23,241 nt of DNA, taken from a virus. The notes under the pieces are model-generated. The model had not been told where the DNA came from and did not search any database. It was given only the letters and a program-made list of their open reading frames with translations. Positions 1 through 12,605 of the stretch are shown piece after piece; the first letter of the stretch is position 1, and the number at the start of each line of letters is the position of its first letter. Both the position numbers and the translations under genes were made by a program. The stretch is taken from the IMG/VR virus record IMGVR_UViG_3300018019_000171, positions 1 to 23,241 of that record, one strand, 5' to 3'.

Positions 1-99
1 GCAAGGGGCGGTGGAATCAATAGCGCACCGCGAATTGGAACGCCTCCACAGTTCCGCGATTTGCTGATTTCCATCGCAAATAGTCAGGCACCGTCGTGA
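1..99 (+). CDS. C-terminal fragment of an upstream gene, product unknown
   Basis: The window opens inside a reading frame that runs 32 codons without a stop to TGA at 97-99 (ending ...LLISIANSQAPS). The stop overlaps the GTG start of the next gene in a GTGA arrangement, the usual sign of translational coupling. The same overlap style recurs at 1663 and 17527, which supports the frame being real. The fragment is too short to name. It has no recognisable domain, and nothing here shows whether it is a terminase, tail or other phage gene. Confidence 0.55.
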   Translation, partial: ARGGGINSAPRIGTPPQFRDLLISIANSQAPS

Positions 100-479
100 T
101 AGGGACTCAAGTACGTAAATCCCTTATGTTTCTATTCGCGCTTCTAACGCCCGTCATGCACTCGCAGGTTGAGATGCTTGCGCTGCAGCCCACTGAAGCC
201 CTCCAGGCGCGATACAATGCATTGCAAGATGCGTACTGGAAAACGAACGATCTAGCGACACTGAAGAGCATACTGGCCGAAGAGGATCCGATCAGCAATG
301 AACTCATTCGCCGAGACATCGCGCAGATCAGAGAGAATACGATTGAACTGCAAGAAGGATACCCGTGCTTAGTGGTAGACGCCATTACAGCGGCGGCTCA
401 GGCTCAGGTAAAATGGTGCCATCACACGTTCCGAGACTGGCTGCTTAGGTATCATGAGCCAGATTGGTGCTGGAAATAA
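96..479 (+). CDS. hypothetical small protein, possibly secreted
   Basis: This 127-aa product is not a family I recognise. The GTG start at 96 overlaps the preceding stop (GTGA). A second possible start, ATG at 126 (M11), would give an N-terminus MFLFALLTPVMHSQ that reads like a short signal peptide, so export is possible. The rest is mostly helical, rich in Gln/Glu/Leu (about residues 30-88), with a C-terminal part holding three cysteines (C91, C108, C125) and several Trp residues, which could form disulfides outside the cytoplasm. It lies at the head of a small-gene cluster that ends with an endolysin, so a lysis-related role (such as a spanin-like component) is conceivable. No motif proves it. 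Confidence 0.6.
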   Translation: MIGTQVRKSLMFLFALLTPVMHSQVEMLALQPTEALQARYNALQDAYWKTNDLATLKSILAEEDPISNELIRRDIAQIRENTIELQEGYPCLVVDAITAAAQAQVKWCHHTFRDWLLRYHEPDWCWK

Positions 480-505
480 CGCGCCACAACCGATTCAAGG
501 AGTGC
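477..505 (+). repeat. leader/RBS direct repeat, copy 1
   Basis: A 29-bp block running from the TAA stop of the previous gene through a strong AAGGAG Shine-Dalgarno. It recurs at 757-785 with a single mismatch (position 483 G, 763 A). It sits directly in front of the ATG at 507. Confidence 0.85.
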
Positions 506-506
506 C

Positions 507-689
507 ATGCCTGATAAACCAGCAGTCCAGCCAGAGCCGAAGAAGGAGAGTTTAGGTAAGAAAATCATCAACGGCCTAGAAGATGTGGGCGAGGTTGCCG
601 CCGCAATAGGCGCTGGGGTGGTTGATTGTGGAAAGGGTGTGATACTAGCCGCCGAAGAAATCTTGGAAAAACACGGAAGCGAAGAGTGA
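507..689 (+). CDS. hypothetical 60-aa protein
   Basis: A 60-residue protein with a strong AAGGAG ribosome binding site four bases before its ATG. The N-terminus (residues 1-20) is Pro/Lys-rich and hydrophilic. Residues 22-52 could form a weakly hydrophobic amphipathic helix (EVAAAIGAGVVDCGKGVILA) with one Cys at 41, and the end is acidic. The central stretch is interrupted by Asp and Lys, so a classical membrane span is unlikely. I recognise no family. It shares its leader sequence with the next gene, the candidate membrane lipoprotein at 789, so the two may be expressed at matched levels or derive from a local duplication. Confidence 0.6.
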   Translation: MPDKPAVQPEPKKESLGKKIINGLEDVGEVAAAIGAGVVDCGKGVILAAEEILEKHGSEE

Positions 690-693
690 ACTA

Positions 694-713
694 CCCACGA
701 CTAAAGTAGTGGG
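694..713 (+). other. hairpin resembling IS200/IS605-type ends
   Basis: CCCAC at 694-698 pairs with GTGGG at 709-713. One G/A mismatch follows, then AC/GT pairs around a TAAA loop. It starts four bases after a stop codon and is followed by GCTTCGTGCTTC rather than a T tract, so it is not a good intrinsic terminator. The shape and sequence recall the subterminal hairpins of IS200/IS605 elements, but no transposase is nearby. It may simply be an mRNA stem-loop. Confidence 0.4.
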
Positions 714-756
714 CTTCGTGCTTCAACGGCTTCAGCAAGATCTCACTGCTATCAGG

Positions 757-785
757 TAACGCACCACAACCGATTCAAGGAGTGC
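757..785 (+). repeat. leader/RBS direct repeat, copy 2
   Basis: Second copy of the 29-bp block found at 477-505 (one mismatch), again carrying AAGGAG and standing just before a start codon (ATG 789). The 280-bp offset spans the whole 60-aa gene and its downstream hairpin. Confidence 0.85.
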
Positions 786-788
786 ATC

Positions 789-1412
789 ATGAAGAACATT
801 CAGAAGTTCACCGCCCGCTGGCATCGCGCTTTCACCTGCCTCGGACTGTTTCTCGGCGTCCTTACCATCTGCCAGCTTACCGCTGGTTGCGACCTTCCTG
901 CTTGGATTCAGACGGCCAACAGCATTATCCCTGTTCTAGTCACAAGCGCCGGATCTGTGCTCAGCCTTCTGGCTGGCCTAACAGGCAATGCCGCTCTCGC
1001 CTCCGTGGTGATTTTGCTGACCGGATGGGCTGCTAAACTTCAGGCCGGGATGCAGAACATTGAATCCCTTGTATCTGAATATCAGTCCAACCCAAGCGAT
1101 ACTCTGCTGGAGAATATCGAGGCCGCTGCTCAGGCTGTGATCTCCGATATTCCTTCCTTTGCACAGGTCGAGGGTATCCCTGCTTCACTGTCGGGCGTCA
1201 TTCAGTCGTTTGCGCAACTGATCCTGACGCAGCTTGAGGCTTGGACTTCTCTTCTTCCGGCCCTCAAGAAGTCGCTTGCCGCTGGCGAGAAGATCACCCT
1301 CACCGTGCCCATGAGCAACAAGGCATTCAAGGCGCAGTGGAACTCAGTGCTGGCGGTACAGACTGGCGATTTGGTGATTGACGCTGCTCTGGCTAAGGCG
1401 AAGAGGCTGTAA
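789..1412 (+). CDS. putative membrane lipoprotein (holin candidate)
   Basis: A 207-aa protein with a basic N-terminus, a hydrophobic stretch (residues 17-30) and a near-lipobox TAG-C with Cys34, so it may be lipidated, although Thr at -3 is not the usual Leu. Two more hydrophobic segments follow (about 46-66 and 68-83). The remainder is helical and moderately hydrophobic. Its start has a strong AAGGAG within the repeated leader. The stop overlaps the next ATG (TAATG). Position shortly before an endolysin makes a holin or other membrane lysis factor possible, but the length exceeds typical holins. Similar proteins of unknown role are, from memory, common in Acidobacteriota. The functional assignment is inference; the exported/membrane nature is better supported. 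Confidence 0.6.
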   Translation: MKNIQKFTARWHRAFTCLGLFLGVLTICQLTAGCDLPAWIQTANSIIPVLVTSAGSVLSLLAGLTGNAALASVVILLTGWAAKLQAGMQNIESLVSEYQSNPSDTLLENIEAAAQAVISDIPSFAQVEGIPASLSGVIQSFAQLILTQLEAWTSLLPALKKSLAAGEKITLTVPMSNKAFKAQWNSVLAVQTGDLVIDAALAKAKRL

Positions 1413-1666
1413 TGGCCAACAAAACTCAAACATGGCAGAACGTGACTCCAGCGCAATACACCGCGCTGGAGTCTGATGTCAAGACGGCGACAGGACTTGC
1501 CATCTCCGGGGATCATGGTACGGCGGAATACAAAGGGGTGCAAGTGGCGTGGGAATACGCTAATCCCAGCCTCGGCATTACCGTCCTATCAGCACCTCCA
1601 TTTTGTACGGGTGTGGCTGAGAAGAAGATTGCCGCCGCCGTCGATAAGGCACTTGGGAGGGCATGA
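1412..1666 (+). CDS. hypothetical 84-aa protein
   Basis: A small soluble-looking protein with the pattern WxNVTPAQYxALxxDVKT near the N-terminus, a central beta-like stretch (TAEYKGVQVAWEYANPSLGITVLSAPPF) and a C-terminal helix. It resembles short proteins of unknown function seen in phage-associated regions of environmental bacteria, but I cannot name a domain. It is translationally coupled on both sides: its ATG overlaps the previous TAA, and its TGA overlaps the next ATG in an ATGA. This ties it to the lipoprotein upstream and the alpha-hairpin protein downstream. Confidence 0.6.
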   Translation: MANKTQTWQNVTPAQYTALESDVKTATGLAISGDHGTAEYKGVQVAWEYANPSLGITVLSAPPFCTGVAEKKIAAAVDKALGRA

Positions 1667-1914
1667 TGCCACTTGAAGATTATCCCGGTCAGTGCGGAGA
1701 GCCTGACCAGCGCCAGTACACGCCGGAGTTTCAGCAGCGCGTAGTCGATGAGAAGGTGGAACTCGACGCCAAGCGAGAAAAACTCTGCTATTTCATGGCG
1801 GGGCAGATTTTCGCTTCACTGCCGGAAAATGAGCGGATGCTCTTAGCCCAGCAGGACATCTACATGAAGAAGTATTCGGATGTTCTTGGTGAGCGACTCG
1901 CGGCGTATTGGTAA
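1663..1914 (+). CDS. Acb2/Tad1-type alpha-hairpin protein, candidate cyclic-nucleotide sponge (anti-CBASS/anti-Thoeris)
   Basis: An 83-aa protein whose core matches my memory of the Acb2/Tad1 hairpin family: FQQRVVDEKVELDAKREKL (residues 23-41), a short linker with F50 and LPENER, then LLAQQDIYMKKYSDVLGERL (60-79). The two helices with RVV-E-K-x-x-L-x-x-K and Q-x-x-x-M-x-x-Y-S-x-(I/V)-L-x-x-R form an antiparallel hairpin. Known members are phage proteins that oligomerise and sequester immune signalling nucleotides (cyclic di- and trinucleotides of CBASS, gcADPR of Thoeris). This protein has Phe23 where I expect the ligand-stacking aromatic and lysines at 31 and 37. The first 20 residues are an extra tail. 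ATG 1663 overlaps the previous stop (ATGA), but GGGAGG at 1655-1660 is better spaced for the adjacent ATG 1666. Family membership is fairly likely; ligand and activity are unknown. Confidence 0.65.
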   Translation: MMPLEDYPGQCGEPDQRQYTPEFQQRVVDEKVELDAKREKLCYFMAGQIFASLPENERMLLAQQDIYMKKYSDVLGERLAAYW

Positions 1915-1923
1915 AGGAGAATC

Positions 1924-2418
1924 GTGGCCAGCTTTGACGTATGTTTATCCTGGGTACTCGACAGTGAGGACAGAAACCGCACCTGGGCATCCAATCCCGA
2001 CTTGCCTCCGGGCGCTAGAGCTATCGCGGGAGTAAACTCTCACGTCTTCCCATCTGAGTACGCGGCCATCGCTGCCAAACTTCAGGCTGAGCGCGGCCCG
2101 GCCGTTTACAGCTTTTACCGGACACACTTCTGGAATGGGTGGTACGGGCAACTGACCTCGACGGAAGTGGCCAAGCGTGTACTCGACAGCGCCGTGAATC
2201 AAGGCCCAGGGACGGCTGTGAAGCTGCTTCAAGAGGCTATCGCCAACCTGTCAGGCATCATCGCCGTGGACGGCCTCTGGGGCGTACTGACGGTGCAACG
2301 TGCGAACCTCTTGGATGCAGACCGCCTAGTGGAAGCCTTCAAAACCGTCCGCATCGCGGCCTACAAGGCTATCGGCGGCCCGGACTTGAAGGACTGGCTG
2401 GCGCGGGCGGCGCGGTAA
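1924..2418 (+). CDS. endolysin, glycoside hydrolase family 108-type muramidase with C-terminal peptidoglycan-binding part
   Basis: A 164-aa protein with the layout of GH108 lysozyme-like phage endolysins, which cleave the glycan strand of peptidoglycan at the end of infection. The N-terminal helix carries the probable catalytic Glu15 (VLDSEDR, in place of the commoner EGG), followed by a loop PDLPPGARAIAGVN that corresponds to the usual DxGGxTxxGI. The second half shows family hallmarks: FYRTHFWNGW (62-71), LDSAVNQGPGTAVKLLQEA (87-105), then DGLWGVLTVQRAN (115-127) and a final Arg/Tyr helix, as in the PG_binding_3 region. There is no signal peptide, so release would need a holin, for which the 789 gene is the local candidate. 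The start is GTG with AAAGGAG four bases upstream. It is the last gene before a strong terminator. Confidence 0.85.
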   Translation: MASFDVCLSWVLDSEDRNRTWASNPDLPPGARAIAGVNSHVFPSEYAAIAAKLQAERGPAVYSFYRTHFWNGWYGQLTSTEVAKRVLDSAVNQGPGTAVKLLQEAIANLSGIIAVDGLWGVLTVQRANLLDADRLVEAFKTVRIAAYKAIGGPDLKDWLARAAR

Positions 2419-2470
2419 TCCCCTCGTGCTCCATGTGCCAGGGGTCGGCGCAGTCCCGCGAACGGACACA

Positions 2471-2497
2471 GGGCATGGCTTAGGTCATGCCCTTTTT
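2471..2497 (+). terminator. Rho-independent terminator after the endolysin
   Basis: Perfect 7-bp stem GGGCATG (2471-2477) / CATGCCC (2486-2492) with an 8-nt loop, followed at once by five T residues (2493-2497). It separates the small-gene/lysis region from the head module, whose first ribosome binding site lies just downstream. Confidence 0.9.
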
Positions 2498-2520
2498 GTT
2501 GAGGAGAAAAGGAGTAAATC

Positions 2521-2760
2521 ATGGCGAGACTCACATCGAAGATGCGCAACGCTCTGAAGCCGAGCACCTTTGCGCTACCGGACAAACGCGCGTATCCTTT
2601 GCCCGACGCTTCTCACGCCAGGAATGCGCTGGCGCGGGCCTCGCAGAACGCCACTCCGGCAGAGCAGGCCACCATCAAGAGCAAGGTGGCGGCCAAGTTT
2701 CCCGGCATAAAGCAAGAGCGCGCCGGCAAGCGCATCACTAAGATGAAAGGCGGCAAATAG
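2521..2760 (+). CDS. DUF6582-like small phage protein
   Basis: A 79-aa basic protein with the signature FALPDKRAYPLPDASHARNA (residues 18-37) followed by LARASQ and a C-terminal KVAAKFPGI. This matches the DUF6582-type motif (FALP-x-x-R-x-YP-x-x-D-x-x-HARNALAR) that I know from short phage proteins and from regions attached to head or maturation proteins. Its molecular role is not established. The N-terminus and the C-terminal tail (KRITKMKGGK) are strongly basic, so nucleic-acid contact is possible. AAAAGGAG lies ahead of the ATG, and the stop abuts the next start (TAG-ATG). It is the first gene after the terminator and so heads the structural operon. Confidence 0.7.
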   Translation: MARLTSKMRNALKPSTFALPDKRAYPLPDASHARNALARASQNATPAEQATIKSKVAAKFPGIKQERAGKRITKMKGGK

Positions 2761-3183
2761 ATGCCCCAGGGATTTGCAGGAGTCAAAAGGATCGTCGACC
2801 TCAACGCCAACACTGGCGCGTTCATTGCAATTCTCGCCACCACCACTTCTCGCCGCGTAATCATCGACGAGAGCCAGATCACGGCCGAGGGCGCCGCCAA
2901 TCCGCCGCAAGGCGTGATCGACTACGAGATTCCGAACGATGGCTCAACCCTTGGATTCACGACGGTATTCCGGGCGGTGGCGGGCAATGGCGACATCATC
3001 GGTTGCGGGAACCTGCCGATCGTTATTGGCAACCCGATGGCCGGGCACGAGGCTTTGGGCGAACTCGTGGGCCAGGTCGGACAGCCCATCATCGGCGTAG
3101 GGACGCAGGCCGCCACGACAATCATCAAACTCCGGTCAGGCAGTGCGACCGCCACCAGCGTCGTCATCACCGAGTTTAATTAA
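2761..3183 (+). CDS. hypothetical head-module protein, beta-rich
   Basis: A 140-aa protein beginning at the ATG directly after the preceding TAG. The sequence alternates short hydrophobic beta-like stretches (GAFIAILATTTSRRVIIDESQ, STLGFTTVFRAVAG, TIIKLRSG, SVVITEFN) with glycine-rich turns (NGDIIGCGNLPIVIGNP, GQVGQPIIGVG). There are no long helices, no signal peptide and no catalytic motif. This composition and its place two genes before the portal suggest a small capsid-associated protein, for example a decoration or head-fibre component. I do not recognise a family and the role is inference. Confidence 0.6.
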   Translation: MPQGFAGVKRIVDLNANTGAFIAILATTTSRRVIIDESQITAEGAANPPQGVIDYEIPNDGSTLGFTTVFRAVAGNGDIIGCGNLPIVIGNPMAGHEALGELVGQVGQPIIGVGTQAATTIIKLRSGSATATSVVITEFN

Positions 3184-3186
3184 GCC

Positions 3187-3510
3187 ATGAAACTACCATG
3201 GGTATCGAGAGAGAGATTTGATGAGGAGCGAGAACGTAACCAGAAGCTCGAAGCCGAACTCAACCGGCTCCGCGAGCTACTGATTCCACAACTGCGCACC
3301 GCTCCGGCTGCGTCTGCTGAGTCGATCATCGGCATGGACACGGACCTCTCGAAGATTCAGCCCATAGCCGGAAAGGTTACGCTCTCCATGGTCACATCCG
3401 CCGCCAACCGGGAAGCCTACAAGCGGTCGCAAACCGCTGGAGCAAAGAGCGTGGCCGAAGAACTGACTGAGAACGCGCAGAAGACGCGGAGGGTATCACA
3501 TGGCCAGTAG
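3187..3510 (+). CDS. hypothetical coiled-coil protein upstream of portal
   Basis: A 107-aa protein with an N-terminal coiled coil (about residues 7-37, heptad-like ERFDEERERNQKLEAELNRL) followed by a polar region with a short segment SKIQPIAGKVTLSMVTSAANREAYKRS and a basic tail. No strong Shine-Dalgarno precedes its ATG, so translation may depend on the upstream gene. Its last 11 bases overlap the portal start. No family is recognised. A role in head assembly follows only from position. Confidence 0.6.
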   Translation: MKLPWVSRERFDEERERNQKLEAELNRLRELLIPQLRTAPAASAESIIGMDTDLSKIQPIAGKVTLSMVTSAANREAYKRSQTAGAKSVAEELTENAQKTRRVSHGQ

Positions 3511-6091
3511 CCCGCTCACGATGCCCCCGCAGGGCGCTCTGACCCCTCCCATGGCAGCCGGAGCACAGAACCAGCCCGATGAGGCAGTCAACGCCGAGAA
3601 AACGTCACAGAACCCCCTCCGCGGCGACAAGCAGGAGCAGGAGCGCAAGTCGGGACTGACCAGCGAGCAAGAGGAGCGCATCGTCCACGAGATCATTCAA
3701 CCATTCCGTACTCAGTGGGCCACCGATCGCATTATGAAGATGCCGAACTGGCTCAAGAATACCGAGTACGACAAGGGCAAGCAGATACTCGGGTGGGATC
3801 CGATCAGCCGAACCTATTTTGATGCGGTTGCCTGGTATCGCCAGAATAATCAGGAATCGGATTACAGCTACCTGGAGAAGTACGTCAACAACATCACTCA
3901 GACCTGCCGGCGCAACTTCACCGCTGCGGTCGCGCGCGCCGTGCCGCCTGTGGTGATCCGCCCCGAGAACGCGGAGAACCTGGCCGACATGACCACGGCC
4001 AAGGCTGGCCAGCAGGCCATCAGCATCATCGAAGAGGCTAACAAAGTCAAAGGGCTGCTGGGGCTGGAGTCGCAATACCTTTTTCTCTATGGCGTCTATT
4101 TCAAGTGGACGCGCTTTGTGATTGATGGCGTGTGGCTCTCATTTACCGAACAACCCGTTTACGGCAATATCGACGCCAAAATCTCAGAGGACCACTTCCA
4201 TTGCCCGAACTGCGGCACGGATTCGACAGAGCAGGAGATCGCGCAGACTGGGAAGATGTCTTGCCCGAAGTGTGGCGCCATGCTGAGCCCCGCCGACTTC
4301 CAGCCGGGCGAGACGGCCAGCGTCGTCGGTAAGGTGGGAACCAAGAAGCGGCCCAACGGTCTGCCGAAGTGGTCCATCTACTCCCCGCTGCAGGTCGATA
4401 CCGACCCGACCAAAGAGTACATCGAGGATGTTCCGCTGCTGGCCCTGGAGTGGGAAGTCGACGCCTGCGAGATTCGCGCCACCTTTCCTGAGATGGCCGA
4501 CGAGATCACCGAAGGCATCGAGAGCGCCACCAACGATAATGCGAGCTACGAGCGCCTGGTGCGAACGATGGTCTACTCGTCATCGTTCTCGGTCACGGCC
4601 GACATCTTCGCTGCGCGCGGCACGTTCTCGCTGGTATGGGTGCAGCCGAACTCCTACTACCGCATCCAGCACGATGACGACTTTGTAGGCCTGCTGAAGC
4701 AGCTCTACCCGGAAGGCATGAAGGTAACGATGTGGGGGCCGCTGGTGCTCCAGATCGAAAAGGCCGTTCTGCCGAAGGAGTGGAGTGCGTGTAAGTTGCA
4801 CCGCGGCTACGGGCTGTATCCGCCGAGCGTGGCTGACAACGTGGTGCCGTTTAATGAGCGGTTCAACGCCATCAACAACATCCTCGATGATTACATGGAG
4901 CGGTGCTCGACCGGCATAACCCTGGCCGACCCGCGGCGCATCGACATCCGCGAGATGAGCGGCAAGCCAATGACCGGCGGCGTGCTCAACCCGACCCCAT
5001 CCATCGGTGAGGGCGTGTCGCAGCCGCTCAGCAATTCCATCTATCATTTCCAATTCCAGATGGACCCAGGCCTGATGTCCTACCTCGACCGGCTCTGGAA
5101 CTACTGCCAGATCATTTCCGGCATCCCGCCGCAGGTGAGCGGCACCGGCACAACCCCAGGCGTGGAGACGGGCAAGGGCCAGAAGCAGATGCTAGACCAG
5201 GCCATGGGGCCATTGGGCGACATCTACGACGCCATGAAAGAGGAGCATGCCGCCGCTGGACAGAACGCCATCGAGTGCCTCCAGCAGAACATGAGCTACA
5301 CCGGCTCGCTCTGGCAGGTGATCGAGGAGAACGGCTCCGAGTTCCGCAACAATTACGTCCACCTCGATGAGATGCAGGGGCGCGTCCGGGTGATGGCCAA
5401 CACCGATGAGGGACTGCCCATGACGCCGGAGCAAAAGCGCGCATGGTGCCAGTCGATCATGGAGATGGCCGAGAAGCAGAACCCGGCCGCCCTGGCGTGG
5501 CTGGACGAGACGGCAAATCAGCAGTTGCTCAATGACTATTGGGGCCTGCCCGGCTCGGTTGCGCCCGGCGCCGCTCAGCGGTCTAAGACACTGCAGGACA
5601 TCCGCCAGCTGCTCCAGACGCCGCCCACGCCGCAGATTGGCCCCAATGGCCAGCAGGCAACAGACCCGGCCGACGGTACGCCGATCTTCAAGCCCTCGAT
5701 CGCGCCGAACAAGTGGGTTGAGGATTACAGCATCATGCTGCCGACCATCGACCAATTCTGCTCCGAGAACTGTGATGTGAAGGATCAGAACCCGATGGGC
5801 TGGGCCAACGTTATCGCCTTCAAGCGGCTGGCTCTGGATTACCAGGCGCAGGTCCAGGGGTACATGGCGAAGTTAAAGATGCAATCACAGAAGGAGGGAC
5901 AACCGCCGCCGCCCGCGCCGAACCCTGCGATTCAGGCGATGGAGGCTAAACTACTCGGGCAGGCTGCCGATGCCGCAGATATGCTCCACCGGAACGCACA
6001 AGTCCCGATCACCATACCGCATTTGTCGCAACCGCCCGTGGCCGCAGCAAAAGAAATTATTGACACCGTAACGAAAGTAATGGGGAAATAA
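3500..6091 (+). CDS. portal protein with embedded zinc ribbon
   Basis: An 863-aa protein read as the dodecameric portal through which DNA enters and leaves the head. Supporting signs are its size, its place before scaffold and capsid genes, and portal-like segments: an N-terminal helical region with RTQWATDRIMKMPNWLKN (70-87), a long central mixed region, PFNERFNAINNILDDYMERC (453-472) and SGIPPQVSGTGTTPGVETGK (539-558), the conformation-changing stretch seen in podovirus-type portals, then a helical C-terminus with a Pro/Gln-rich part. Unusually, residues 235-258 carry CPNCG and CPKCG (C235, C238, C255, C258), a typical zinc ribbon. The ATG has GGAGGG at 3488-3493. The C-terminal region (from about 700) is low in order and rich in Pro and Gln, as in barrel/tail extensions of long portals. 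Confidence 0.82.
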   Translation: MASSPLTMPPQGALTPPMAAGAQNQPDEAVNAEKTSQNPLRGDKQEQERKSGLTSEQEERIVHEIIQPFRTQWATDRIMKMPNWLKNTEYDKGKQILGWDPISRTYFDAVAWYRQNNQESDYSYLEKYVNNITQTCRRNFTAAVARAVPPVVIRPENAENLADMTTAKAGQQAISIIEEANKVKGLLGLESQYLFLYGVYFKWTRFVIDGVWLSFTEQPVYGNIDAKISEDHFHCPNCGTDSTEQEIAQTGKMSCPKCGAMLSPADFQPGETASVVGKVGTKKRPNGLPKWSIYSPLQVDTDPTKEYIEDVPLLALEWEVDACEIRATFPEMADEITEGIESATNDNASYERLVRTMVYSSSFSVTADIFAARGTFSLVWVQPNSYYRIQHDDDFVGLLKQLYPEGMKVTMWGPLVLQIEKAVLPKEWSACKLHRGYGLYPPSVADNVVPFNERFNAINNILDDYMERCSTGITLADPRRIDIREMSGKPMTGGVLNPTPSIGEGVSQPLSNSIYHFQFQMDPGLMSYLDRLWNYCQIISGIPPQVSGTGTTPGVETGKGQKQMLDQAMGPLGDIYDAMKEEHAAAGQNAIECLQQNMSYTGSLWQVIEENGSEFRNNYVHLDEMQGRVRVMANTDEGLPMTPEQKRAWCQSIMEMAEKQNPAALAWLDETANQQLLNDYWGLPGSVAPGAAQRSKTLQDIRQLLQTPPTPQIGPNGQQATDPADGTPIFKPSIAPNKWVEDYSIMLPTIDQFCSENCDVKDQNPMGWANVIAFKRLALDYQAQVQGYMAKLKMQSQKEGQPPPPAPNPAIQAMEAKLLGQAADAADMLHRNAQVPITIPHLSQPPVAAAKEIIDTVTKVMGK

Positions 6092-6102
6092 GGAGAATTC
6101 AC

Positions 6103-6579
6103 ATGCCCAGACAGTACATTGATCCGCAGCCGTTCAAGGACGAGATCGACGCGCTCAAAGCGAAAGTCGCCGAACTCGAAGCGAAACTTGAGTCGCTCAA
6201 CGCCGTGCCGCCGCCGCTGTGTGAGGGAAAGCCGCCAGCAATCACCCATGAAGATGCCGTGAAGCTGATCGACGAGGCCATTAAGCTGGAAGAGGAGAAG
6301 GCTGGAGACGAGGCCATCAAACTGGTCGATGAGGTCTTCGGCCCGGTCGAACCAGGCGCGCCGGAGTCGCCACACGCGATTCCCGGCGGAGTCGAGTCAG
6401 ACGCTCCTCCGTATGAAGTCAAAACGTACTCGGATGGCACAGTGGTAAGCGGCCCCGGACCGATGCCGGACCTATCGCCTGCGCAGCAGGACGCGGCAGA
6501 ATTGGTCCAGATCGAAGCAGCGCAGAATCAACCGGATGCGCCGGAAGTGGACCAGACCGGCGAGAATGCTCAGAAATAG
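6103..6579 (+). CDS. hypothetical acidic coiled-coil protein between portal and scaffold
   Basis: A 158-aa acidic protein. Residues 10-35 form a clear coiled coil (EIDALKAKVAELEAKLESL). A second charged helix (about 48-78, with the near-repeat IDEAIKLEEE / DEAIKLVDEV) follows, then a Pro/Asp/Gln-rich disordered C-terminus. A strong AAGGAG precedes the ATG. It is wedged between portal and scaffold candidate, so a scaffold accessory or assembly-chaperone role is plausible. No family is recognised. Confidence 0.6.
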   Translation: MPRQYIDPQPFKDEIDALKAKVAELEAKLESLNAVPPPLCEGKPPAITHEDAVKLIDEAIKLEEEKAGDEAIKLVDEVFGPVEPGAPESPHAIPGGVESDAPPYEVKTYSDGTVVSGPGPMPDLSPAQQDAAELVQIEAAQNQPDAPEVDQTGENAQK

Positions 6580-6617
6580 CCCACTCTCTTGATTGCAAAA
6601 GAAAGTGAACAGCACCG

Positions 6618-6659
6618 GGGCGGCCACAAGCCGCCCTGCTCAACCTGACGGGGCAGGTT
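6618..6659 (+). promoter_or_regulatory. tandem hairpins in the scaffold leader
   Basis: The 104-bp gap before the scaffold gene holds two neighbouring stem-loops. GGGCGGC (6618-6624) pairs perfectly with GCCGCCC (6630-6636) around CACAA. AACCTG (6642-6647) pairs with CAGGTT (6654-6659) around six bases. Neither is followed by a T run, so they look like mRNA structure (processing, stability or attenuation) rather than a terminator. The scaffold ribosome binding site AAGGAG follows. Confidence 0.6.
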
Positions 6660-6683
6660 CCCGCAGAACAAGGAGCGATACTC

Positions 6684-8432
6684 ATGGCAACACCAGGATC
6701 CCCGATCTCAGTCGTGCCCAGCGCCCCCGCCGTGTCCGCACCGGCACCAGCGCCAGCGGCATCTCCGGTCCCCGCAGCACAGTCCGCACCAGTAATTCCC
6801 TCCCCCTCAGCGCCTGCCGCACCAACAGCAACACCCGCGGCAGGCGCCCCGCCATCAGGAGCAACCGGGCCGCAGCCGCCGTCGAAGCTGAACCCGTCCG
6901 AGTTCGGCAATGCGGTGGACTCCTACCAGGCCGAGGTCCAATGGCGGCAGGAGCTAGAAGCGTTCAAGGCTGAGAACCCCACCGTCACAGTCGACGATGA
7001 ATCCCCCTGGCCTGTTGAGCGAACCGAGACAGAAGCGGAGACACCCGCAGCCGAGACGGCTACTGAGACACCCGCGGAAGAGAAAACGGCAGAAGAAGCA
7101 ACCAAACCCGATGCGGAGAAGACTGAAGAGACGCCGGCCGAGCCGGAGGAATCCTATTCGCTGGCCGATGATCCGGTTCTGACGCCCCAGGCACTCAATG
7201 ACCTGCTGAAAGGCGACGAAGCACTCAAGGCCGCCGTCGAGGCTAACCCGGCCGCCAAGGGCGCGCTGTTCAAGATGGCGCGCGAACACGCGGAACTCTC
7301 GCAGCTCAAGGGAATCTTCGCATCGCCCGACTCGGCCAATTTCGCCAAGGAGACATCGAACCGGGTCATTGCGATGCGCGCGAAGTTTCAGGACTTCGAG
7401 AGTCCCGACGGCATCGCCAAGGCATTCGACTCCTTTGCCCAAGAATTCGCTATTGTCGGAGCCGACGGCAAGCAGGTAATCGATGATCAGGGCCAGCCGG
7501 TCTATGGCGAGGATCTCTACGCTTTCGGAGAGCACATCGTCGACCGCTACGCTGACAGCTCGCTGGCCGAGGTCGAGGAGCGGATAGCCGCCAACCAGTA
7601 CACCAGCGAATCCGACCGCGAGCGCGATAATGATCTGAAACTGGCCCTCTCGATCATCAAAGACGACTTGCACCCGAAGGGAAAAGAGGCAAAGGGCGAC
7701 CCTGACCTGTCCAGCCTATCCCCCGATGTGCGCGCCGAGGTCCAGGCCCGGCTCGATGAGGCCAAGCGCATCGAGTCAGCCAATGCGGCCAAGGATGCGG
7801 GCGCGGGCAAAAAGGGCCGGGAGCAGGTCCGGCAAGAAGGGACGCAGAAGTTCTTTGTCGAGGCTGGTACTCGCACTTTCCAGCAAGTTGACAAGATCAT
7901 CGACGGGCTGCGCAAGGCGGGTGCGGTGATTCCCGACTGGCAGCTCAATACCCCGCTGCCGGGGTCGAATATCAGCGCCTTCAAGAATGCGGTTGGCAAT
8001 GAGATCGAGAGCTACATCAAGGCCGACCCCTACGAGTTCAACAAGCAGCTCGAGTTGGAAGTCCAGTACCTCGCCAATCCCACGACGGAGAACATGCAGT
8101 CGCGCATCAAGGCGTTCGATTCCATACTTCAGTCGCGGGACCAAACCGGCAAGAGCCTGCTCAACCGCATCGTCACAAAGCTGGTGCGCAAGTATGGTGC
8201 CGACGTTCAGGGAGCAACAGGGGGTGGCCGTACCGACACCGCGCCGACGGCCAGCAAGGAGCCTACGCAGGGAGCGCCGGTACGGCCGCACCAGATGACA
8301 GGCGACGAGGCATGGAAGGCCGCAGAAGGCCAACTTGCCAAAGAGAACTCGCAATGGCATAATCTGAGCGATAGCGAACGATTGGCCGAGACGTTCAGCC
8401 GGCAACGGCAACTGCTTACGACCAAGAGGTAA
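6684..8432 (+). CDS. candidate scaffolding protein
   Basis: A 582-aa protein immediately before the capsid gene, the usual place of the scaffold that templates procapsid assembly and then leaves. The first 75 residues are almost entirely Pro/Ala/Ser. Residues 105-160 are a Glu/Thr/Pro-rich acidic linker. The rest is a highly charged, largely helical region (about 165-460), and the C-terminus (540-582) is a charged helix ending in QRQLLTTKR, similar to scaffold C-termini that contact the coat protein. There are no enzymatic motifs and no prohead-protease signature. AAGGAG stands before the ATG. The identification rests on composition and synteny, not on a recognised domain. Confidence 0.6.
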   Translation: MATPGSPISVVPSAPAVSAPAPAPAASPVPAAQSAPVIPSPSAPAAPTATPAAGAPPSGATGPQPPSKLNPSEFGNAVDSYQAEVQWRQELEAFKAENPTVTVDDESPWPVERTETEAETPAAETATETPAEEKTAEEATKPDAEKTEETPAEPEESYSLADDPVLTPQALNDLLKGDEALKAAVEANPAAKGALFKMAREHAELSQLKGIFASPDSANFAKETSNRVIAMRAKFQDFESPDGIAKAFDSFAQEFAIVGADGKQVIDDQGQPVYGEDLYAFGEHIVDRYADSSLAEVEERIAANQYTSESDRERDNDLKLALSIIKDDLHPKGKEAKGDPDLSSLSPDVRAEVQARLDEAKRIESANAAKDAGAGKKGREQVRQEGTQKFFVEAGTRTFQQVDKIIDGLRKAGAVIPDWQLNTPLPGSNISAFKNAVGNEIESYIKADPYEFNKQLELEVQYLANPTTENMQSRIKAFDSILQSRDQTGKSLLNRIVTKLVRKYGADVQGATGGGRTDTAPTASKEPTQGAPVRPHQMTGDEAWKAAEGQLAKENSQWHNLSDSERLAETFSRQRQLLTTKR

Positions 8433-8709
8433 AAGATACCCCGGGGAGCGACCCCAAAAAGCAAAGGCGGGTGAGAATCCCGCCACTTATTTGAAGTACC
8501 GAGCGAAAGCTGAAGTATCGAGACGTGGCCTCCTGAAGATGCTGTACCGGGTATCGGCTCCGGTTAGGGATGGAACCTCAAGAGAAAAGCAGACCGCTCA
8601 CCGCACTCATCCGCACCGGCCGCCGGCCGCCCGCGCACCCTCTCCGACAGATAGCCGATAGTCAAGTGCACTCGATCTCCTCGTGAGATCGTGCGCGGGA
8701 GAATACTAT
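8433..8709 (+). ncRNA. structured non-coding leader upstream of the capsid gene
   Basis: A 277-bp interval with no plausible gene but several stem-loops. GGGG 8443-8446 pairs with CCCC 8452-8455. GGCGGG 8466-8471 pairs with CCCGCC 8479-8484. GTAC 8496-8499 pairs with GTAT 8515-8518, enclosing AGC-GAAA-GCT (8502-8511, a GNRA loop). ACCGG 8546-8550 pairs with CCGGT 8560-8564. A strong hairpin, GATCTC 8674-8679 with GAGATC 8685-8690 extended by GCAC/GTGC, sits just before the capsid ribosome binding site. GCCAC (8482-8486) could alternatively pair with GTGGC (8525-8529), competing with the second hairpin. Phrases such as GGGTGAGAATCCC recall domain I of group II introns, but no domain V or reverse transcriptase is present. 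It could be a processed leader, a cis-regulator or an independent RNA. Confidence 0.5.
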
Positions 8710-10017
8710 ATGCCAGCCCCAAACTTTACGACCGCATCCGCTGATTCGGTCCTCATGCTCCAGACCTACACGCCGCCCAAGGAAGTCATCGAGAACATGG
8801 AGTCCGAACTGGACCGCCGGTTCTCGACCATGGGCCCGCAGACCATGACCTCGCTCCAGGAATTCCGCGTCATGCTGCAGTACGAGTACGGCGGCAGCTT
8901 TGGCGCCGGCTCGACCGATGGCGGCAACTATCCGACCGGCACCGGCGGCGCTTACAACGAGGGAATTATGACCCCCGTGGAAATCCTGCTGGCCATCACC
9001 GCGACGGATCTCCAGAAGCGCATCGGCGGCAGCGGCAAAACCGTGATCGCCGTCAACCCCGTGGACAAACTGGTGGCCGACGCGCACACCAAGATGCCCA
9101 AGAAGCGCAACCAGAGCCTCCAGGGCTTCAATACGGGCCAGATCGCCACGGTCTCCGCGACCTATGCTGGCGGCGGCGCCAATCCCATCTCCCTGGCCAC
9201 CACGCCGTTTGGCTCTCGTCTCATCGACATCCAGGACACAATTCAGTTCATGTCCGGTGATGGCAATTACACCCTCCGTGGCTCTGCCGTCGTCATCGAT
9301 GCCCCCAAGAACGGCATCGGCGCCGGCAACCAGGTAACAGTTGACACCGTGCCTCCCGGTGTCATAGCCGGCGACTACGTAATGGTTAACAACGTGGCCG
9401 CCGGTTCGCCTCTGTTCTTCAACGGCATCCAGTACATCGTCAGCCCGAATACCACTGGCGAGTATCTGGGCATGGACCGCTCGCTCTCTTACGTGCAGAG
9501 CCCGTCCTACAATGCCAACTCGTCGCTGCTCACCCTGGGCATCGTCGAGACGTTCCTGGCTCGTATGCAGCAGGCCATGGGCAACACGACCTACAACCGC
9601 GACCGCCCCAAGAACTTCTGGTACGGCCACAATGCACAGCGCGCCTCGTGGAACCAGTTGGGATTTGCCATCCAGCAGATCACCATGCCGACGGGCAAGG
9701 CTCCCAAGTTCGATGGCGTGCCTGACACGTTCACCGCGGAGACCATCGCTGGCGTGGAGTGGCTGCTGGACACCGTTGCTGCGGTGGACAAGCTCTACTT
9801 CATGGACCGCTCCAGCATGATCCGCTGCCGCTTCAACAACGCTCCTCAGTTTGTCCCCGGTCAGATCGAGGGCATCTGGTTCCAGCGCCCGAGCGGCAAC
9901 AACACGTCCAGCTACAAGGACGCATGGCTCTACGACGCTGTCAATTATGCGAGTAGAAACAATTGGACGAGCGGCGTTTGCTATGGCTTGTCGATTGAAA
10001 CCAGTTTTTCCAACTAG
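8710..10017 (+). CDS. major capsid protein
   Basis: A 435-aa protein read as the major coat subunit. It follows the scaffold candidate, has the expected size, and shows a capsid-like pattern: an N-terminal helical arm (LQTYTPPKEVIENMESELDRRFS), a Gly-rich loop, beta-strand-rich middle regions (NGIGAGNQVTVDTVPPGVIAGDYVMV) and a helix with LGIVETFLARMQQAMG. I take it to be an HK97-fold coat of the podovirus kind, although the fold is inferred. I chose ATG 8710 (MPAPNFTTASADS) because GGGAGAA at 8697-8703 is well placed. A GTG at 8683 would add nine residues but lies inside the leader hairpin. Long structured intergenic regions flank the gene on both sides, suggesting separate control of its mRNA. 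Confidence 0.82.
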   Translation: MPAPNFTTASADSVLMLQTYTPPKEVIENMESELDRRFSTMGPQTMTSLQEFRVMLQYEYGGSFGAGSTDGGNYPTGTGGAYNEGIMTPVEILLAITATDLQKRIGGSGKTVIAVNPVDKLVADAHTKMPKKRNQSLQGFNTGQIATVSATYAGGGANPISLATTPFGSRLIDIQDTIQFMSGDGNYTLRGSAVVIDAPKNGIGAGNQVTVDTVPPGVIAGDYVMVNNVAAGSPLFFNGIQYIVSPNTTGEYLGMDRSLSYVQSPSYNANSSLLTLGIVETFLARMQQAMGNTTYNRDRPKNFWYGHNAQRASWNQLGFAIQQITMPTGKAPKFDGVPDTFTAETIAGVEWLLDTVAAVDKLYFMDRSSMIRCRFNNAPQFVPGQIEGIWFQRPSGNNTSSYKDAWLYDAVNYASRNNWTSGVCYGLSIETSFSN

Positions 10018-10084
10018 CAGAATCAACGGTTTAGGCTAGAGATTTCGATTCGCCTCCGATTTTTCTAGCCTAGACGTTGAATTC
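10018..10084 (+). promoter_or_regulatory. long near-perfect inverted repeat just after the capsid gene
   Basis: Two 21-nt arms, 10020-10040 and 10064-10084, pair almost completely: GAAT/ATTC, CAACG/CGTTG with one bulge, then a 9-bp perfect TAGGCTAGA/TCTAGCCTA, around a 23-nt loop. It starts three bases after the capsid stop and is not followed by a T tract. Such a stem suits an RNase processing site or a 3' stability barrier for capsid mRNA; Rho-independent termination is less likely. Confidence 0.75.
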
Positions 10085-10109
10085 AGACAAATGCTTCGCA
10101 CACTCTCAA

Positions 10110-10185
10110 GGATTCGATCCAGTTCCATTTGCTGAGTATCAAAATAGCGGGAAGAGCTCGATTCGAGTGAACTGACGGAAGTTCA
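10110..10185 (+). other. cluster of short inverted repeats
   Basis: Between the capsid and the next gene lie three further small inverted repeats: GGAT-TCG-ATCC (10110-10120), CTCGA-T-TCGAG (10157-10167) and TGAACT/AGTTCA (10168-10173/10180-10185). The motif GATTCG recurs several times across 10045-10165. They could be protein-binding sites or RNA stems. No convincing sigma-70 promoter is visible among them. Confidence 0.45.
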
Positions 10186-10196
10186 ACATCAACCCG

Positions 10197-10226
10197 GCGG
10201 GCGGCTTCGGCTGCCCGCTCCATTTT
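10197..10226 (+). terminator. UUCG-capped hairpin (terminator or attenuator) before the 10236 gene
   Basis: GCGGGCGGC (10197-10205) pairs with GCTGCCCGC (10210-10218), nine pairs including one G-U, around a TTCG tetraloop closed by C-G, an exceptionally stable type. It is followed by TCCATTTT, a weak U tract, and then directly by the GGAGG ribosome binding site of the next gene. It may terminate part of the capsid transcript and thereby reduce downstream expression. Confidence 0.65.
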
Positions 10227-10235
10227 GGAGGCAAC

Positions 10236-10931
10236 TTGCTTGACCCTCTACGCGACACCCCGCGCGAAGTGCGAGAGTTTTTATTTCGCTGCGGCGGGAA
10301 AAACGAGTACGGCGACCCGAACTGGAGAATCATCCTGTCTCAGAACCATCTTGTCCAGCGCGCCGGAATGTGGACTGAGTTTGCCGATGATACGGAGCAG
10401 GTCCGTTTTGAGGAGCGCAAGCACGACGTAGCGTACCAGACGCGACAGATTGCCCCGGACGCTATCCGCATCGGGATGTTTTGGGTTCCGCTCTACCCCT
10501 GCGATGGCTGGATTCTGGAGCGGTGGTTTCCAGCGTCGGCCTACGGCAGCAAGGAGCAATGGGAGTCAGCTCTATCCCAGGACGGCGAGACCCCGATGAT
10601 GGGGCCCTATCCTGAGCGCGGCGGCTACTTCATGCTGTCCGGCGGTGGCCCATGGCCGGAGATTCCCCAGCTTGAGGATGTGCGCGCGTCGATTGCGCAA
10701 TGGGAGAACTCGGCCCACTGCCATGGCGTCGTCGACGAGAAAGCAGTGGCGCGGGCAATGCGCCTGGACATGGAAGAGGCCGACGAGCGCGAGCAGGCGC
10801 AGTATGATGCGTTCCTCGCGGAAGTGACCTACCAGCGATTGAGCCACCTCGAATTTCTCAAGGGGGATCCTGAACTCAGAGGATTCCGCAACCGACTCGT
10901 CAACCAGCAAGGGCTGATGAGCCACATCTAA
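10236..10931 (+). CDS. hypothetical connector-module protein
   Basis: A 231-aa protein starting at TTG 10236, with GGAGG at 10227-10231. No ATG is available near the 5' end in this frame. The first half is rich in aromatic residues and Pro/Gly (WRIILSQNHLVQRAGMWTEF, MFWVPLYPCDGWILERWFPA). Residues about 145-215 are a charged helical region, possibly coiled. No family or catalytic motif is recognised. It is the first gene downstream of the capsid, where head-completion or connector proteins are often found, but nothing in the sequence proves that role. Confidence 0.6.
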   Translation: MLDPLRDTPREVREFLFRCGGKNEYGDPNWRIILSQNHLVQRAGMWTEFADDTEQVRFEERKHDVAYQTRQIAPDAIRIGMFWVPLYPCDGWILERWFPASAYGSKEQWESALSQDGETPMMGPYPERGGYFMLSGGGPWPEIPQLEDVRASIAQWENSAHCHGVVDEKAVARAMRLDMEEADEREQAQYDAFLAEVTYQRLSHLEFLKGDPELRGFRNRLVNQQGLMSHI

Positions 10932-10978
10932 ACTCGCGGGACAAGTTCTCGGAGCGCAGCACCAAGGAGCGTATCACC

Positions 10979-11893
10979 ATGCCAGAAATCCTCGATCAGC
11001 CCATATTGCCCAGCGTAGTACAACAGAATCTCGGAATGTCCGCATCTGCGCGCGTCCAGATGAGGCTCGATAAGATTTACGAGTTGGAACTCCGAGGTGA
11101 AATCAAGCCAGCCACGATCATCAACCGCTCTCCGTTTGAACTCAAGGTCGAAACGGGGTATTGGGATTACAGCGTTCCGCCGCGGCCGTCCGGTAAGCCC
11201 TTCTCCAGCCTGACCGTCACGGGGACTCGCGCCTTTTTCCCGTATCGGGGGAAAGAGGAGATGAGCGACCATAGCACCCACGACCGATTCGATTGCGGCA
11301 TCCTTCTCCCTGTTCATCAGTTGATGGAGTTCAAGACTTGCTATGTCGGCCTGAACGATGGAGACAAGAATTTCAAGCAGGGTGGCGTGATTGTTTTTGA
11401 GGGAGATTTAGAAGGCATTACGCCAAAATCCACAGTGCGCGATCCGTCGTGGGTGTTCAAAGGGAAGAAGAGATTCCTCAAGTTCAGCGACCGCATCCTC
11501 GGGGATCTGATCGAAGAGGCCGACGCCCAGATGAAGCACCGATGCATGGTCATTCTCGACCAGGCGGACCACTGGGCCGATGACCCGAAGACGCGCGCGA
11601 ACATCCAGCGGCCGGAGCGCGTGTGGGCCGACTTCGCTTTCGAGCAGAAGTGGATCACGGCACCGAAGGCCTGGCGTAACACCGTAACCCGGCCCGAGGA
11701 TTCCTGCCCGCGGTGCGGCGCGCAGTACGTCTCGAAGACGGGGATGTGCAAATGCAGCTACGTCGTCGATCCTCTGCTGGCTTTCTTGTCTGGGGAAATC
11801 CTGGTCGATCACGTCCGGCTCCAGACACTCAAGGCTGAGGACTGGAAAAAGATCAACGCTGAGCAGGAACGGCGCAACAAGGCTAGGAGCTAA
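10979..11893 (+). CDS. hypothetical virion-module protein with C-terminal zinc ribbon
   Basis: A 304-aa protein with AAGGAG ahead of its ATG. An N-terminal helical segment (residues 22-40) is followed by a beta-rich middle (ELKVETGYWDYSVPP, PFSSLTVTGTRAFFPY, GVIVFEGDLEGI). A helical part comes next, and near the C-terminus CPRCG...CKC (C243, C246, C257, C259) can bind zinc. I do not recognise the fold. The order after the capsid gene suggests a connector or minor structural protein, but the zinc ribbon is also compatible with nucleic-acid contact. Together with the portal it forms a theme of metal-binding modules in this phage's structural genes. Confidence 0.6.
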   Translation: MPEILDQPILPSVVQQNLGMSASARVQMRLDKIYELELRGEIKPATIINRSPFELKVETGYWDYSVPPRPSGKPFSSLTVTGTRAFFPYRGKEEMSDHSTHDRFDCGILLPVHQLMEFKTCYVGLNDGDKNFKQGGVIVFEGDLEGITPKSTVRDPSWVFKGKKRFLKFSDRILGDLIEEADAQMKHRCMVILDQADHWADDPKTRANIQRPERVWADFAFEQKWITAPKAWRNTVTRPEDSCPRCGAQYVSKTGMCKCSYVVDPLLAFLSGEILVDHVRLQTLKAEDWKKINAEQERRNKARS

Positions 11894-11897
11894 GCAC

Positions 11898-12605
11898 ATG
11901 CAGACGCGGAAAGATGTTTATGGCAAGGTGGCCGGGCTTGTTGGGGACAGCTATTTCGACTGGCTTACCCCAGAGTACTTCTCGCCGCTCTGCGAGACAG
12001 CCTACGAGATGTCTATCTCGTACCTCAATGGAACGTGCGCCCCTTTTATCGAAAAGGTGGTCACGGTTCCTGGCGTGTCCATCGGGGTGGATGAATCAGA
12101 CCTGGTGGCATCTGCCATTTCCGATAACGTCTATCCGCTGAAGTATCTGATAAAGCCGCGCTACGTGGACTTCAAGCCGGTGGGCGCACCTGCCAATCAG
12201 TACAAGCCGGTCTCGGAATTCCAGATTCTTCCCGATACGCCCTCGCAAGCCCAGGCGGGCGCGTTCGATATTCGCGTGCGCGGCGACTTCCGGCCTCAAC
12301 CGCTGCTCACCGAAGATACGGTGGTGGAAATCGCACCGCTCGCTGGTCATGCACTGGCATTGTCCATCGCGGCTCTGATCGGGATAGAGCGTCCGAACCA
12401 GGGATGGGTGGACAACTACGGCAAGATGGCGCAGAACGCATGGGACGAGATCGCAGCAGACCTCATGCGCCAGCAGCAGCATCTGACGGCTCGCCTGGGC
12501 TCCCCAAACCGTAACAATCAGCGGCGCGGCGGCTGGGCATATCCGCTCCAAGGCAACATGGGATGGGAATGGCGCGGCTTTGGCTTATTCCTGAAACTCA
12601 TCTAA
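11898..12605 (+). CDS. putative head-tail adaptor protein
   Basis: A 235-aa protein with TAGGAG before the ATG. The layout is an N-terminal helical part (KDVYGKVAGLVGD, FSPLCETAYEMSISYLNGT), a central beta region (residues 50-150, with KYLIKPRYVDFKPV and FDIRVRGDFRPQPLLTEDTVVEI) and a C-terminal helical part (HALALSIAALIGIERPNQ, then KMAQNAWDEIAADLMRQQQHL). This helix-beta-helix pattern, the size and the position before a very large tail protein match short-tail adaptors of the P22 gp4 / T7 gp11 kind, which sit between portal and nozzle. The call is by architecture and synteny only. Confidence 0.5.
   Translation: MQTRKDVYGKVAGLVGDSYFDWLTPEYFSPLCETAYEMSISYLNGTCAPFIEKVVTVPGVSIGVDESDLVASAISDNVYPLKYLIKPRYVDFKPVGAPANQYKPVSEFQILPDTPSQAQAGAFDIRVRGDFRPQPLLTEDTVVEIAPLAGHALALSIAALIGIERPNQGWVDNYGKMAQNAWDEIAADLMRQQQHLTARLGSPNRNNQRRGGWAYPLQGNMGWEWRGFGLFLKLI

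Follow-up and report, generated by a model that had tools for sequence, protein, structure and literature searches.

PF21825 (crAss001_48) phage proteins as a candidate nucleotide-sponge family, with a stand-alone helical hairpin encoded beside an endolysin gene

Our analysis identifies an 83-aa phage protein as a stand-alone member of Pfam family PF21825 (crAss001_48), predicted to fold as an antiparallel helical hairpin and showing no sequence relation to Acb2/Tad1 that we could detect. The protein is encoded in an IMG/VR virus record of 23,241 bases, the whole of which we refer to as the window. We judge the chances to be about even that it is a counter-defence sponge from a distinct helical-hairpin family, one that probably binds an immune nucleotide on its own. 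The initial annotation had proposed an Acb2/Tad1-type sponge for immune nucleotides at this position. The hairpin it observed is confirmed and its family call is wrong; its functional guess is plausible and is now better supported, indirectly, by the repeated fusion or adjacency of PF21825 to Acb4-family and Tad2-like domains.

The gene, its neighbourhood and its family

The 83-aa open reading frame lies exactly at the positions first annotated (Table 1). It is a genuine phage gene: its product matches PF21825 above the family cut-off and has relatives in many cultured phages. A megablast search of cultured phages with window positions 1-12000 found no close relative. As first annotated, the gene sits beside an endolysin: an endolysin-like ORF (GH108 and PG_binding_3 below cut-off in Pfam; PHROG endolysin, E 1e-12) lies directly downstream, starting shortly after the hairpin gene's stop codon. 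Beyond it, a stem-loop may mark the end of the operon, in a region where the count of terminator-like sites is at chance level. The window holds no further sponge domain of the tested types, and these domains were absent from the flanks of all ten distant endolysin relatives.

Table 1. Features at the hairpin gene and its neighbours (window coordinates)
Feature	Position	Strand	Basis
84-aa gene, function unassigned	1412..1666	+	TGA overlaps hairpin-gene ATG (ATGA, 1663-1666)
Ribosome-binding site GGGAGG, directly 5' of hairpin-gene ATG	1655..1660	+	sequence
PF21825 (crAss001_48) protein, 83 aa	1663..1914	+	Pfam E 6.4e-16, AlphaFold2 hairpin
N-terminal extension, ~20 residues, low-confidence model	1663..1722	+	pLDDT ~60, alignment
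PF21825 domain itself (residues 21-80), a pair of antiparallel helices	1723..1902	+	Pfam, AlphaFold2, alignment
Endolysin-like gene, 164 aa, GTG start, GH108/PG_binding_3 type	1924..2418	+	Pfam, PHROG
Terminator-like stem-loop 3' of endolysin	2470..2493	+	10-pair stem and T run

The initial annotation also placed the hairpin gene in a coupled block with the 84-aa gene upstream. The physical coupling is real, as the two genes overlap, but it is not a conserved partnership: the 84-aa gene recurs in unrelated phages without this neighbour. A conserved pair of the two genes is ruled out by two otherwise unrelated contigs in which other genes follow the 84-aa gene. Window positions 1407-1667, comprising the 84-aa gene alone, share 87-89% nucleotide identity with contigs L298 and L299, with edges at the gene ends; there, genes for a small membrane protein and a terminase-like product come after it. 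The 84-aa gene looks like a single-gene mobile cassette. Elsewhere in the window, a 25-base element, GCRCCACAACCGATTCAAGGAGTGC, with a ribosome-binding site at its end, occurs twice (481-505 and 761-785), upstream of a 60-aa gene and a 207-aa gene, where chance would predict no such repeat.

PF21825 is the sole Pfam match of the window protein, over profile positions 1-60 of 61 (58.4 bits against a cut-off of 24.8); PF13876 and PF11195 were not matched. The family corresponds to crAss001 gp48 and PHROG 774. PHROG matches of the window protein are to groups of unknown function, and PADLOC and NCBIfam gave no match. PDB searches found no solved structure of any family member. The open-access papers searched named neither PF21825 nor crAss001_48 and gave no function, though the newest sponge papers lie beyond that scope and an earlier description is possible. 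Relatives were collected with natural sequences as tblastn queries; a made-up consensus query returned almost no matches, probably through low-complexity masking. The family is found in crAss-like, N4-like, T4-like and jumbo phages and in many environmental phages.

We aligned 108 relatives and found eight almost invariant residues (R26, E30, L41, F44, Q64, M68, L75 and R78), all of which are kept in the window protein. Two other positions set it apart. The initial annotation described Phe in place of Tyr at a presumed base-stacking site; the Phe is there (F23), but Tyr is not the family residue, as 99 of 106 relatives have His, five Phe and two Tyr. At the position of Y82, all 103 relatives compared have Phe. 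With these two substitutions, the specificity of the window copy could differ from that of its relatives. The N-terminal extension is likewise a feature of this copy, since many stand-alone relatives begin only a few residues ahead of the domain.

AlphaFold2, supplied with an alignment of 53 relatives, predicts helices at residues 21-46, 48-52 and 55-82, with a pLDDT of about 91-99 in the hairpin and a mean of 87.7. The two-helix signature noted at the outset thus appears as a high-confidence antiparallel hairpin. In a Foldseek search of viral models, crAss001 gp48 was the second-best match. Against the PDB, Foldseek returned weak matches to generic hairpins (E ≥ 0.97), including dimerisation coiled coils, and neither Acb2 nor Tad1 was among the 50 matches listed. 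T4 Acb2 (Vs.4) belongs to PF24729 in Pfam, which the window protein did not match at E ≤ 10. In hhalign, the crAss001_48 profile compared with 74 PaP2-like Acb2 sequences reached a probability of 0.8% across 12 columns, on a par with the reversed controls. T4 Acb2 scored 94% (E 1e-7) against the same 74-sequence profile, so the test has power. On the strength of Pfam, a PDB sequence search, profile-profile comparison and the 50 listed fold matches, we reject the assignment of the window protein to Acb2/Tad1.

Association with Acb4-family and Tad2-like domains

The CBASS sponge Acb4 belongs to PF13876 (PMC11722364). We ran Pfam on 53 extended PF21825 proteins, drawn from IMG/VR loci and from genome and cultured-phage loci, and found 12 with a one-ORF fusion to PF13876 and 3 with one to PF11195 (Tad2-like); both assignments are family names, and a name does not prove nucleotide binding by each member. 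Rhizobium phage RHph_X3_15 encodes a 252-aa protein combining PF13876, a short module that we call domain A, and crAss001_48; Vibrio phage 1.205.O encodes a 170-aa protein combining crAss001_48 with a Tad2-like domain. Klebsiella phages KP8 and Kpn16-P2 have a stand-alone crAss001_48 gene after a PF13876 gene and a Tad2-like gene, and in KP8 the three are near neighbours.

Because the cultured-phage examples were chosen partly for matching both domains, we tested the link on loci fetched by crAss001_48 similarity only. Among 80 such IMG/VR loci, a few of them near-duplicates, PF13876 lay in the same ORF in 10 and a Tad2-like domain in 3. PF13876 was nearby, not fused, in 5 more (15/80 in total), compared with 0/80 for control loci centred on Acb2 (p 3e-5; Tad2-like in 2). 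Flanks of 3 kb in the control and 4 kb in the crAss001_48 set introduce a small bias that leaves the in-ORF fusions unaffected.

Whole records gave the same association. PF13876 was present in 12 of 50 viral records with crAss001_48; in most of the 50, no known sponge gene was found. Its copies lay within 400 bp of crAss001_48 in 10 of these 12 (P ~2e-14 under random placement) and in the crAss001_48 ORF itself in 7 (P ~7e-11). PF11195 occurred in two of the 50 records, both copies fused to crAss001_48, and PF24729 in one. RyR-domain anti-Thoeris proteins had no match in the 50 records, in a search that matched nowhere and is hence uninformative. On a tree of 108 PF21825 domains, the 14 tips fused to PF13876 require at least 13 changes, although a tree from 60 residues is noisy. 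Tad2-like/crAss001_48 fusions occur in both domain orders. Together, the differing orders and the number of changes indicate that the joining of crAss001_48 to PF13876 and Tad2-like domains has recurred.

Several orphan modules recur around these proteins. Domain A (PMTRGEYNxxRGW..GYxSWSPK), domain B (PGDWIIRGVKGExYPCKPDIF) and a WMPYQKGQA module (found at L009:3755-3967, L001:5686-5955 and the N-termini of L035 and L044) are shuffled among proteins of the crAss001_48, Tad2-like and Acb4 families; they may be ligand-binding domains too. Domain A precedes crAss001_48 in CSP3, phi1 and BF1-TP2, a Tad2-like domain in N4 gp49, KP8 and Vibrio phage 44E38.1, and PF13876 in Carjivirus gp41.

A further helical domain of ~60 aa, which we call HLP (KYFAYEHLPxHLQ..EKSAGMRKLLEAKDCFVRA; 508 IMG/VR matches, for example L050:3776-4207, L139:2989-3555 and L022:3283-3474), occurs as a fusion with crAss001_48 in 16 of the 80 loci, with domain A in a single phage and, in L139, with an RyR domain (PF02026), whose family includes anti-Thoeris proteins (PMC13232231). 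These fusions make HLP a candidate counter-defence module. Its AlphaFold2 model shows a short helix and a hairpin. One HLP member has a sub-threshold PF24729 match (E 0.21); hhalign and a PDB search gave no support for an Acb2-like hairpin.

In N4, KP8, Carjivirus and crAss001 (L012, L015, L023 and L011), PF13876, Tad2-like or crAss001_48 genes lie next to or near giant virion RNA polymerase genes, possibly a shared slot for genes of these families. At L038:2588-3490, an ABC/AAA-type ATPase has crAss001_48 as a C-terminal fusion, and the same contig carries an Acb2/Tad1 hairpin gene ~1.2 kb upstream of this fusion.

What the hairpin may do

The best reading of these data, held at even confidence, is that the phage sponge toolkit includes PF21825 as a distinct hairpin family. 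In the mechanism we envisage, the hairpin would self-assemble through its helices into an oligomer and bind a host immune nucleotide, either a cyclic oligonucleotide of CBASS or an ADP-ribose derivative of Thoeris. Putative pockets would be lined with the near-invariant polar residues R26, E30, Q64 and R78, and the signal would be kept from its effector, giving the window copy a role in counter-defence. We infer this site by analogy: charged and amide side chains so strictly conserved on a small hairpin would be consistent with ligand binding where the subunits of an oligomer meet, as in known sponges. Stand-alone copies account for about half of the distinct PF21825 domains (52/108), and the hairpin must therefore act by itself. 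Somewhat more tentatively, PF21825 may add another family, with a structure of its own, to the phage nucleotide sponges; it would serve both by itself, as here, and as a plug-in with Acb4-family or Tad2-like domains to build multi-specific sponges, possibly for a signal that other families miss. Several points count against the sponge reading, which relies on guilt by association. PF21825 resembled no known sponge in sequence (hhalign) or, among the 50 PDB matches listed, in fold; most of the 50 records yielded no known sponge gene; and the window copy has a lysis neighbourhood and no second sponge domain of the tested types in its window.

An unlikely alternative, though the strongest, is that crAss001_48 serves as an accessory hairpin for oligomerisation or tethering, multimerising its fusion partners, sponges included, and binding no ligand itself. 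Its simple helical-hairpin build would suit such a role, as would the dimerisation coiled coils among its PDB neighbours and its wide choice of partners (domains A and B, HLP, the WMPYQ module, Acb4-family and Tad2-like domains and, once, the ABC/AAA ATPase). However, the stand-alone copies, that of the window among them, have nothing to multimerise, and the charge and amide conservation at R26, E30, Q64 and R78 exceeds what a coiled coil needs. In addition, the Acb4 tetramer is made by its own domain (PMC11722364).

We give a lower probability still to a counter-defence protein that blocks a host defence protein (an effector, TIR or cyclase) instead of a nucleotide. Small helical proteins often act as inhibitors of other proteins, and clustering and fusion with anti-defence genes would be equally expected of one. 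The identified fusion partners, however, belong to nucleotide-binding types (the Acb4 family and Tad2-like), and the conserved core is kept in phages of hosts as different as Bacteroides, Klebsiella and Rhizobium. Such breadth is easier to reconcile with one shared small ligand than with a host protein that varies.

A lysis-related, structural or other housekeeping role is improbable. The window copy lies directly upstream of an endolysin gene and a family member in Bacteroides phage BF1-TP2 adjoins one, but members elsewhere occupy many unrelated places, with nrdD, RNA polymerase, capsid or NinG genes as neighbours. Vibrio phage 44E38.1 has a Tad2-like gene close to its endolysin; taken with the BF1-TP2 case, this indicates that a lysis-side location is not unique to the window. 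In crAss001, gp47 and gp49 are reported as virion proteins and gp48, which they flank, is unmentioned (PMC10172136), although a 63-aa protein is easily missed. Finally, a true but highly diverged Acb2/Tad1 hairpin is very improbable: both groups are short phage proteins of antiparallel helices (PF24729 is named 'Acb2/Tad1, hairpin domain'), but HMM and profile-profile similarity are absent where the positive control works, the 50 best PDB fold matches listed include neither protein, and hairpins that look alike by eye should not be filed under Acb2/Tad1 on looks.

The repeated fusions of PF21825 to Acb4-family and Tad2-like domains suggest that phages build multi-domain sponges. PF21825 is a large orphan family, and these fusions offer a concrete and cheap functional test.

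Relation to known families

The window protein resembles the rest of the crAss001_48 family in its full-length domain match, its near-invariant residues and its predicted hairpin, and differs in its 20-residue extension and in having F23 and Y82 where the family has His and Phe. With Acb2/Tad1 (PF24729), it shares small size, a phage origin, antiparallel helices and, for PF21825 as a whole, the proposed sponge job; we detected no sequence, profile or fold relation between the two, the last among the 50 PDB matches listed. Tad2-like proteins (PF11195) are fused to crAss001_48 in both orders and share domain A with it as an N-terminal partner, but theirs is a separate domain that does not resemble the hairpin (hhalign 0.4%). 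The Acb4 family (PF13876, represented by SPO1 Acb4) often shares a polypeptide or operon with PF21825 in other phages, and the job proposed for the two is alike. The folds differ: Acb4 has a beta-sheet core with flanking helices and forms a tetramer (PMC11722364), whereas the PF21825 hairpin shows no similarity to it (hhalign 0.45%).
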